Assembly (NCBI GenBank): GCA_021325195.1 | Contig: JAJPHQ010000096.1 | Span: forward strand, 1-43,998 | Reading direction: 5' to 3' | Source: Gammaproteobacteria bacterium | GTDB lineage: Bacteria; Pseudomonadota; Gammaproteobacteria; Xanthomonadales; Rhodanobacteraceae | DNA length: 43,998 nucleotides | Part shown: one piece after another, positions 8,556 to 37,327 of the stretch | Position numbering within the stretch: the stretch's first letter is position 1 | How the letters are laid out: each line of letters opens with the position of its first letter | Notes under the pieces: model-generated | What the model was told of the DNA's origin: nothing | Databases searched by the model: none | The model's input: only the letters and a program-made list of their open reading frames with translations | Made by a program: the position numbers and the translations under genes

Positions 8556-8699
8556 GGAAGCTCTGAACAAATCCATCCAGGATTTGCCAGAACACGCCGA
8601 ATTCGGCTTCGCCAATCAAGCACGCGCAGCCCATGCGTGCTTGATTGGCGGTCGGCACATCCCTGTGCCGCATGGAAACTCTGATGAATCAGAGTTTCC
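8556..8699. repeat. Dispersed hairpin-rich intergenic element, copy A
   Basis: A 144-bp element filling the gap between two convergent genes. Its ends are GGAAGCTCTGA and TCAGAGTTTCC, an imperfect terminal inverted repeat. Inside are successive perfect stems: CAAATCC/GGATTTG (8568-8574 with 8580-8586), the palindrome GCCGAATTCGGC (8596-8607), a 15-bp stem with 9-nt loop (8611-8625 with 8635-8649), CGGCACA/TGTGCCG (8653-8659 with 8664-8670), and a 12-bp stem at 8674-8699. Close relatives occur at 13344 (inverted) and 33094. It may act as a bidirectional terminator. Confidence 0.85.
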
Positions 8700-13343: not shown

Positions 13344-13583
13344 GGAAATTCTGATTGATCAGAGCTTCCATGTGGCACAGGGATGTGCCGACCGCCAATC
13401 AGGCACGCATGGGTTGCACGTGCTTGATTGGCGGAGCCGAATTCGGGCGTGTACCGAATTATTCGGTACATCCTTGTACCTCACCCTCGCTTCGCGAAGG
13501 CCGCCTTTGGCGTTCCGCCGCGCTCCAAGCGCGGCTGGTCGGCGTGCTCCGGCAAATCCAGGATGGATTTGTTCAGAGATTCG
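13344..13583. repeat. Dispersed hairpin-rich element, copy B (inverted, with an internal insertion)
   Basis: An element of about 240 bp in opposite orientation to copy A. It begins with GGAAATTCTGAT paired to ATCAGAGCTTCC, then the GGCACA/TGTGCC stem, a long stem around CCGCCAATCA/TGATTGGCGG, GCCGAATTCGG, and ends with GGATGGATTTGTTCAGAGATTC. About 90 extra bases (roughly 13455-13548) lie between these conserved parts and include CCTCACCCTCGC and other hairpin-forming runs, suggesting a second repeat inserted into the first. With its flanks it fills the 369-bp gap 13323-13691 between the ligase-like gene and the GT2 gene. I see no gene in it. Confidence 0.78.
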
Positions 13584-29815: not shown

Positions 29816-29935
29816 CGTCTGATTGACCGCCATCGCTTGTCGCTCACATCCCGCGCCGCGCGCCCGGCCCGCGGCCACCTCTCCCGCGAGCGGGAGAGAT
29901 GGCGGAATCATCGTCACGCCACACGCGGCCAAGGC

Positions 29936-33093: not shown

Positions 33094-33236
33094 GGAAGCT
33101 CTGAACCGATCCATCCAGGATTTGTCGCAGCAAATTCGGTGCACGCCCGAATTCGGCTTCGCCCATCAAGCACGTGCTTGATGGGCGGGCGGCACATCCC
33201 TGTGCCGCACGGCAACCCCGATCAATCAGGGTTTCC
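33094..33236. repeat. Dispersed hairpin-rich element, copy C, exactly between two stop codons
   Basis: A 143-bp relative of copy A in the same orientation: GGAAGCTCTGA start, GATCCATCCAGGATTTG, CCCGAATTCGG, GCCCATCAAGCACGTGCTTGATGGGC (a near-continuous palindrome), CGGCACATCCCTGTGCCG, and CAGGGTTTCC at the end. It fills the whole gap between the convergent PEPM-like and PPi-PFK genes. Both genes end with GCTTGA before GGAA, so the repeat's extended end seems to include both stop codons. Confidence 0.85.
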
Positions 33237-35761: not shown

Positions 35762-37327
35762 ATGCGCATCCACATCCTGGGCATCTGCGGCACCTTCATG
35801 GGCGGCGTCGCCGCGTTGGCGCGTGCAATCGGTTTCGAGGTCGAAGGTTCCGACGCCAACGTGTATCCGCCGATGAGCGACCAGTTGCGTGCCCTCGGCA
35901 TCACCTTGCAGGAAGGCTGGTCGGCGCAGCATTTGCAACCCGCGCCGGACCTCGTGGTGGTCGGCAACGCGCTCAGCCGCGGCAATCCTTCGGTCGAGTA
36001 CATGCTGAACGAAGGGATGCCGTACACCTCCGGCCCGCAGTGGCTGGGCGAGCACGTGCTGCGCGGCCGCGAAGTGCTGGCGGTTGCGGGGACACACGGC
36101 AAGACGACGACTTCGAGCCTGCTCGCGCATCTGCTCGATGCGGCCGGTTTGGCGCCGGGTTTCCTGATCGGCGGCGTGCCGGGCAATTTCGGGGTGTCGG
36201 CGCGACTCGGCGCTCTTGAACCCTTCTCCCTTCGGGAGAGGCGGCGCGGAGCGCCGAGCGCGCAGCGCTGGGGTGAGGGTCCGCACGAATCCGAACCCTC
36301 ATCCGTCCGACTACTTGAATCGCGAAATGCGGCGCAACCCCCATCTGCGTCGCAGGTTCAAGTGGTCGGACACCTTCTCCCGGGGGGAGAAGGGGGGGTT
36401 GCGTCGCCTTCGGCGACACCGTTCGTAATTGAAGCGGACGAATACGACACCGCCTTCTTCGACAAGCGTTCCAAGTTCGTGCACTACCGGCCGCAGATCG
36501 CGGTGCTGAACAACCTCGAATACGACCACGCCGACATCTTTCCCGACGTCGCCGCGATCCAGCGCCAGTTTCATCATCTGGTGCGCACGGTGCCGGGCAA
36601 CGGCCGGCTGATCGTCAATGCGGAGGACGCCCGACTCGCGGAGGTTCTGGCGATGGGTTGCTGGACGCCGGTCGAGACCTTCGGCATCGAAGCGGGCGAA
36701 TGGCGCGCGCGCCTGCTGGCCGGGGACGGTTCGGCTTTCGAAGTCTCGCGCCGCGGCGAACGCATCGGCACCGTGCACTGGAACCTGCTGGGCCGCCACA
36801 ACGTGATGAACGCGCTGGCCGCGCTGGCGGCGGCACACGCGGCAGGCGTCGAACCGCGGTCGCTGTTGGCCGCCTTCGCGAGCTTCGCGAGCGTGAAGCG
36901 CAGGATGGAATCGCTGGGCGAGGTGGACGGCGTGCGTGTCTATGACGATTTCGCGCACCACCCGACCGCGATCGCGACCACGCTGGCGGGCCTGCGCGCG
37001 AAGGTCGGCAACGCGCGGATCCTGGTGGCGCTGGAGCCGCGCTCCAACTCCATGCGCGCGGGCGCGCACGCCGACGCGCTGGCGCCCTCGCTGGGCGAGG
37101 CCGATGCCGTGGTGTTGCTGCAGCGCCCGGAACTGGCCTGGGATGCGCAGCGCGTCATCGATGCCCTGCAGGGCCGCGGAGCCACCGCGCCCAGCGTGGA
37201 CGAACTGATCACCGGGTTGCTGGAACGCGCGCGTCCCGGCGACCACGTGGTGTTCATGTCCAACGGCGGATTCGAGAACGCGCCACGGCGTTTTCTCGAT
37301 GCGCTGCGCGCTTCGCCGCGGCGCTAG
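35762..37327 (+). CDS. mpl: UDP-N-acetylmuramate:L-Ala-gamma-D-Glu-meso-DAP ligase with an extra inserted segment
   Basis: A 521-residue Mur-ligase-type enzyme that recycles the murein tripeptide onto UDP-MurNAc. The N-terminal domain has HILGICGTFMGGVAALA, the ATP site is VAGTHGKTTTSSLLAHLL (residues 108-125), then GGVPGNFGVSARLG, FVIEADEYDTAFFDKRSKFVHY, NNLEYDHADIF, LLGRHNVMNALAA and YDDFAHHPTAIATTL. Residues 151-220 are foreign to the family: E. coli Mpl has about four residues between HLG and FVIEADEYD, this protein about seventy. The extra codons come from a hairpin repeat. Minus the insertion, the length matches the family. Whether the product is active is unknown. Confidence 0.9.
   Translation: MRIHILGICGTFMGGVAALARAIGFEVEGSDANVYPPMSDQLRALGITLQEGWSAQHLQPAPDLVVVGNALSRGNPSVEYMLNEGMPYTSGPQWLGEHVLRGREVLAVAGTHGKTTTSSLLAHLLDAAGLAPGFLIGGVPGNFGVSARLGALEPFSLRERRRGAPSAQRWGEGPHESEPSSVRLLESRNAAQPPSASQVQVVGHLLPGGEGGVASPSATPFVIEADEYDTAFFDKRSKFVHYRPQIAVLNNLEYDHADIFPDVAAIQRQFHHLVRTVPGNGRLIVNAEDARLAEVLAMGCWTPVETFGIEAGEWRARLLAGDGSAFEVSRRGERIGTVHWNLLGRHNVMNALAALAAAHAAGVEPRSLLAAFASFASVKRRMESLGEVDGVRVYDDFAHHPTAIATTLAGLRAKVGNARILVALEPRSNSMRAGAHADALAPSLGEADAVVLLQRPELAWDAQRVIDALQGRGATAPSVDELITGLLERARPGDHVVFMSNGGFENAPRRFLDALRASPRR
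36212..36421. repeat. Composite hairpin repeat (REP/BIME-like) inserted in frame within mpl
   Basis: Two units in inverted orientation. The left one has TTCTCCCTTCGGGAGAG and GGGGTGAGGGT; the right one has ACCCTCATCCG and a 9-bp stem CCTTCTCCC/GGGAGAAGG (36373-36393). The net gain over a normal Mpl is about 66 codons, a multiple of three, and no stop codon occurs in the mpl frame. Similar CTCTCCCGC/GCGGGAGAG arms occur at 29879-29898. Confidence 0.85.

Follow-up and report, generated by a model that had tools for sequence, protein, structure and literature searches.

Palindromic repeats of unlike families appear to enter one loop of the Mpl ligase repeatedly and in frame

How can a dispersed hairpin repeat lie within the gene of a conserved ligase and apparently leave the enzyme in working order? 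The question is raised by mpl in the window, the whole stretch of 43,998 nucleotides of gammaproteobacterial DNA that was analysed here. A sequence-only reading of this DNA had described an in-frame repeat insertion in Mpl, which it took for either a tolerated insertion or the mark of an enzyme being lost. Our comparisons make it highly probable that the repeat inserted in frame into a tolerant loop of Mpl, that the enzyme is functional, and that unlike repeat families have repeatedly invaded this loop.

An extra loop in the ATP-binding domain of Mpl

The mpl product contains three Mur ligase domains and scored 635 bits in a profile search with TIGR01081, against a cut-off of 389. The insertion (Table 1), comprising 210 nt or 70 codons with 67% GC, is bordered by the codons of L149-G150 (36206-36211) and F221 (36422-36424). 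In the short-loop protein L026 of the same genus, 4 residues stand in place of these 70, a net gain of 66, and the distance from GTHGK to VIEADE is 46 in L026 and 112 in the window Mpl. Alignment thus bears out the gain of about 66 residues noted earlier, and the reading frame is open throughout, as had been claimed. The site indeed lies between GVSARLG and FVIEADEYD; however, it is not next to the ATP-binding domain but inside this middle domain, between the P-loop (residues 110-117) and the metal-binding residue E224.

Table 1. Features of mpl and of its insertion, in window coordinates
Feature	Position	Strand	Remarks
mpl	35762-37327	+	521 codons (521 aa), single terminal stop, frame open
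Repeat-derived insertion	36212-36421	+	between G150 and F221; folding z-score -7.9; residues 155-216 disordered in the model
Left unit, dispersed repeat (family A)	36215-36287	+	23 other own-genome copies, E<1e-8, 84-95% identical
Outer inverted repeat, left arm	36221-36239	.	89% complementary to partner 36376-36394
Outer inverted repeat, right arm	36376-36394	.	partner 36221-36239
Inner palindrome, apparently nested	36306-36370	.	arms 36306-36319/36357-36370, 13/14 bases complementary, read from the sequence
Terminal GTCGCC-TTC-GGCGAC hairpin	36403-36417	.	several sister inserts with a similar hairpin at the same end
Strand FVIEADEYD with metal-binding Glu E224	36422-36448	+	directly after the insertion

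All positions of FVIEADEYD except F221 and I223 are invariant among 41 Mpl proteins, and E224 is by alignment offset the equivalent of Glu178 in PaMpl, as given in the available text of PMC3060825. The ATP and metal residues, mapped from PaMpl in the same way (PMC3060825, available text), are likewise invariant in the 41 proteins (K114, T115, E224, N251, H256, H346, N350, R381, D396, and H399). With the loop left out, dN/dS was 0.06-0.17 in nine pairs, six of which carry inserts in both members. An AlphaFold2 model of Mpl had a mean pLDDT of 85.0, with residues 155-216 as the sole segment below 50, and its best solved-structure match was the Psychrobacter Mpl 3hn7. The earlier statement that the other Mur ligase motifs are intact is in agreement with the profile score and these invariant residues. 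Of the two fates envisaged for Mpl, a tolerated insertion is the one that motifs, dN/dS, and model point to, and loss of the enzyme finds no support; the insertion thus looks tolerated and Mpl does not look lost. Modelling as a surface loop, which had been suggested, yielded a disordered loop in an otherwise confident model and no folded extra domain.

A composite palindromic repeat

Inverted-repeat arms were found in the insertion at 36206-36230/36234-36258, 36221-36239/36376-36394, and 36320-36342/36394-36416. Its folding z-score of -7.9 against dinucleotide shuffles compares with -0.1, 0.1, and -2.0 for three other mpl segments, and the hairpins are beyond chance. Parts of the insertion match 24 other places in the own genome (2.92 Mb) at E<1e-8, 23 of them with the left ~70 bp and one with the right part, and 11 of the 15 other genomes of the genus contain matches at the same threshold. 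The stretch 36350-36394 has an own-genome match at C50:4123-4167. The description as a composite inverted hairpin repeat is therefore upheld by the arms, the z-score, and the dispersed matches. At the position of the inner palindrome, other copies have only a short loop, which suggests the nesting of a second repeat within the first.

A repeat that is specially poor in stop codons was considered and rejected: 22 own-genome copies have on average 4.36 of six frames open, compared with 4.34 after shuffling, and since the shuffles are equally open, the openness of these copies is no more than base composition gives. Family A inserts in mpl itself mostly exceed their shuffles in open frames (4 versus 1.7 for L017), with the opposite found for L070 (2 versus 2.6). 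At 29863-29898 of the window, a hairpin resembling family A lies between two long minus-strand ORFs, and copies thus occur outside genes too.

Long loops in related Mpl proteins

The loop was read in 69 of 100 sampled relatives (14 of the same genus, 44 from the rest of the family, and 11 from other families of the order) and in the own genome; the other 31, among them the same-genus genome G002 without a full-strength Mpl match, stand outside the loop counts. We called a loop long when the GTHGK-to-VIEADE distance was at least 60; the remaining proteins range from 46 to 53. Including the own genome, 14 of 15 Mpl proteins in the genus have long loops, with 22-66 extra residues, compared with 8/44 in the rest of the family (Fisher test, p 3e-7, relatedness ignored) and 1/11 elsewhere in the order. 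Comparison with sister proteins, proposed earlier as a check, therefore confirms the window insertion relative to L026 and finds long loops to be usual in the genus. It also answers the concern that the insert might be a normal domain of most Mpl proteins there: most do have a long loop, but close sisters differ and no single homologous domain is present. One conserved extra domain was accordingly rejected, the sister inserts being unlike and the loop disordered in the model.

Among 80 named loci, 78 were read by motif and 13 of these have long loops: L046-L048, which fall within the Lysobacterales tree, nine betaproteobacterial or unnamed loci, and one from Psychrobacter. The two loci missed by the loop motif were inspected by eye and kept out of the counts of long loops, z-scores, and insertion positions; a long insert is lacking in L080, whereas that of L088 (Methylotenera) is repeat-like. 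In total, 148 of 150 Mpl loci are in frame through the loop by motif, and the remaining two by eye. An even sample of the class gave Mpl matches in 59 of 71 genomes. For 52 of these, both gene halves are listed on the same contig; the halves are no more than 12 nt apart and together cover 436-461 codons, which argues that long loops are not general.

Relative to L026, insertions of at least 15 aa occur at this loop in 35 of 148 sequences and at another internal place, nine residues wide, in 3 of 148; with at least 10 aa, the counts are 40/148 and 7/148. After residue 77 of L026, 15 sequences have an 8-residue insertion.

Unlike repeats in the loops of sister species

Hairpin z-scores below -3 were obtained for 23 of 36 long loops (median -3.5), whereas among 106 control segments taken from these genes (median -0.2) only 3 scored so low. 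The other 13 long loops scored -3 or above, so a hairpin repeat is not demonstrated for every long loop. L059, L062, L068, L082, L111, and L143 scored near zero; five Burkholderiales or Psychrobacter inserts are among the near-zero scores.

We sorted the Lysobacterales inserts by eye, without clustering, into family A, with hairpins of the CCCTCTCCC type and including the window insertion, family B with GGGGTCAG ends, family C with GGGATTGGGGATT runs, and family D with GGGGACGGAGG ends. By this sorting, at least four unlike repeat families appear to occupy the Mpl loop in related species. Own-genome searches scored at most 40 candidates per genome, and the counts are matches rather than places, as both strands are counted. 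With three pooled inserts at E<=1e-10, the matches listed numbered 45 in G013, 42 in G004, 28 in G005, 25 in G007, 24 in G071, 23 in G008, 20 in G014, 19 in G056, 10 in the L046 genome, 4 in G024, 3 in G011, 1 in G040, and 0 in G041. A search with six inserts pooled as the query (E<=1e-4) listed 58 for G009, 36 for G010, and 20 for G001; in G015, G033, and the L048 genome, self matches were the only ones among the matches listed. Separately, Mpl of Hydrogenophaga, Rhodoferax, and an uncultured bacterium (L060, L074, and L101) share a similar insert of the AVRSAQVKEEPAQRAGDTEQ type, with z-scores of -5.9, -6.6, and -7.8.

A quick tree of Mpl, in which the alignment omitted the loop and comprised 88 rows (85 different), requires at least 13 changes for presence or absence of an insert and at least 20 for the five states (families A-D or none), counts that do not distinguish gain from loss on a tree with many unsettled forks. 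Close sisters contrast in L022 (A) and L023 (D), in L025 (A) and L037 (B), in L034 (none) and L043 (A), and in L137 (none) with L129 (B) and L046 (A). As far as these comparisons reach, the window insertion is apparently one case of a recurrent event.

Links to Y1 transposons

Three sister inserts look like MITEs of Y1 transposons. The L024 insert of G009 matches both TIRs flanking the Y1 transposase L186 in the same genome, the L023 insert of G003 matches both TIRs of the Y1 transposon L188 in G005, and the L045 insert of G010 has a 97% match to a 31-nt TIR upstream of the Y1 gene in G010, the other flank of which is lost at a contig end. Thus, two TIRs link L024 and L023, and one links L045, to TIR-flanked Y1 transposons (TIRYT) and their MITE-like derivatives, whereas the window insertion has no such link. 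The TIR motif GGGGWSAS has been described beside Y1 transposases (PMC3733652, available text). Family B ends fit it, and family A GGGGTGAG does so as well, which is weak evidence for a link to Y1. No Y1_Tnp match was found in the own genome at E<=0.001, nor did the surroundings of 13 Y1 genes from seven sisters contain a match to family A; a Y1 transposase was rejected as the mobiliser of family A on these searches, and no other mobiliser was found. In the L017 insert, an unlike inner segment has REP-like matches to either side of the Y1 gene L189 in G004.

In-frame copies in other genes

We examined 35 stretches around own-genome repeat matches, mpl included, and counted a copy as in frame when family models lie on either side of the repeat or run across it. 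Besides mpl, at least eight in-frame copies were found in six genes, namely three in lhr and others in an argE-like deacetylase gene, rmlD, hrpB, nuoG, and hutF; several spanning ORFs stand outside the family scan. For hutF, the repeat match at the DNA level covers only 30 nt (E 1.6e-4), and the model match spanning the repeat in nuoG scores below its cut-off. We excluded L183, where a lipoyl/Lpd linker contains a short match, and in the TPM protein (L003) and RfbB (L181) the repeat lies upstream of the domain. Pfam gave no family for nine of ten further ORFs spanning repeat copies and, for the tenth (L007), a domain only downstream of the repeat. The three lhr copies (L002, L004, and L005) lie in a large Lhr-type helicase gene on contig C25 of G000.

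The earlier view that conversion of a repeat into protein is rare does not hold in this group, given these copies and the long loops of 14/15 Mpl proteins in the genus. In HutF of the genus (L190-L195), one loop is longer by 10-48 residues in 5 of the 15 loci that could be read, with 1 of 16 unreadable, and four sister HutF inserts were read by eye as repeat derived. Mpl as the sole recurrent site is ruled out by this loop.

Explanation and alternatives

We propose that a dispersed palindromic repeat, which nested hairpins have made larger here, entered a surface loop of Mpl in frame, at a point just ahead of the strand carrying the metal-binding Glu. Its translation would lengthen the loop by about 66 disordered residues, and the enzyme would remain functional. 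Selection may allow such insertions at only a few sites, of which this loop is one, and unlike repeat families would therefore have entered it repeatedly in related bacteria. We infer that the insertion is translated, that Mpl is active, and that the loop is a hot spot through tolerance and not through site-specific targeting.

The repeat might instead have been wrongly joined into mpl during assembly or binning, as the assembly has 118 contigs and repeats are where assemblies fail. Yet the frame is kept and the single-contig sisters G004 and G014 have inserts at the same place, and we consider such an artefact extremely improbable. That Mpl is decaying, with the insertion as an early step of gene loss, would suit 66 residues placed within a catalytic domain, and in E. 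coli the recycling served by Mpl is dispensable. We nevertheless reject gene loss, and regard decay as very improbable, in view of the open frame, the invariant ATP and metal residues, the low dN/dS outside the loop, which includes insert-bearing pairs, and a frame preserved across the loop in the 150 loci read by motif or by eye.

Two further explanations concern why the loop is hit so often. Transposases might select a DNA motif in this region of mpl; Y1 transposases are an enzyme group with target preferences, families B and D resemble MITEs of Y1 transposons, and very many insertions lie at a single place. However, four families that are unlike one another (A, B, C, and D) occur at this place, a common target motif was not worked out, and HutF has another such loop. 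The copies in six genes together with the HutF loop favour tolerant loops over a target specific to Mpl, and we hold targeting to be unlikely. Slightly less likely still is that the repeat-derived residues are kept for a function, altering domain opening, stability, or partners of Mpl. The site is near the boundary of the first two domains, where the authors of the PaMpl structure propose in the available text that loop 161-171 affects, and may control, opening (PMC3060825), and long loops are kept throughout most of the genus. On the other hand, close sisters differ in sequence and length of the insert, the model is disordered, and G006, the source of L026, lives without one. Insertion into a tolerant loop thus remains our preferred reading. 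We only tentatively extend it, with more doubt than belief, to the notion that the Mpl loop is a protein-level landing pad or safe harbour for unrelated mobile palindromes, in which cassette-like turnover over short evolutionary times continually renews a disordered loop near the domain hinge and perhaps affects activity.

Relation to known protein-coding repeats

Rickettsia palindromic elements (RPE) in protein-coding genes were described by Ogata et al. (2000, 2002), as summarized in the available text of the review PMC10969869. According to that text, they are dispersed palindromes of ~100-200 bp that lie in frame in unrelated genes and add tens of residues. The window insertion resembles them as a dispersed palindromic repeat and in standing in frame in several unrelated genes of one genome, mpl and six others. 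We draw this likeness for the mode of working and not for the sequence; the organism group is another, and in the present case a single loop of a single enzyme has received several unlike families.

For GTAG/CGTC REPs, in-frame positions within genes have been reported from many species, and in two Xanthomonas species the recB genes carry one at nearly the same position (Di Nocera et al. 2013, PMC3733652, available text). They share with the repeats studied here a short palindromic form, a location within ORFs, and an association with GGGGWSAS-type TIRs beside Y1 transposases (PMC3733652). In contrast, the window repeat as a whole does not appear to have the short GTAG/CGTC-headed design. A plain motif count in 36212-36421 gave CTAC once (36311), CGTC at 36304, 36348, and 36402, and neither GTAG nor GACG. 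Recurrence is also much wider here, and Mpl does not appear in the main text of PMC3733652.

In the Psychrobacter and Neisseria enzymes (3hn7 and 3eag), PaMpl 161-171 and NmMpl 153-162 precede the same metal-binding strand by alignment, and the loop before this strand is, on this comparison, apparently a naturally length-variable place in Mpl. Those loops have only ~10 residues and are modelled in the crystals, and no repeat origin is given for them in the available text of PMC3060825.

An open-access literature search found no report of repeat insertions in Mpl. Protein-coding palindromes are thus known, and what appears to be new is that unlike families recur at a single loop. Selfish DNA read as protein, known from Rickettsia and from intragenic REPs, is mostly scattered, whereas here the loop of one conserved enzyme is hit repeatedly, which gives a direct view of protein sites that accept foreign sequence. 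Close sisters with a different insert or none offer natural comparisons of Mpl with and without repeat-derived residues. For annotation, the findings are a warning that repeat DNA can be the source of long loops with poor conservation in such genomes.

The window also carries a second dispersed repeat of ~110 bp with companion arms of 38-44 bp, at 8557-8699, 13344-13582, and 33095-33236. Its copies are 92% and 77% identical, inverted, and located at or near gene ends.
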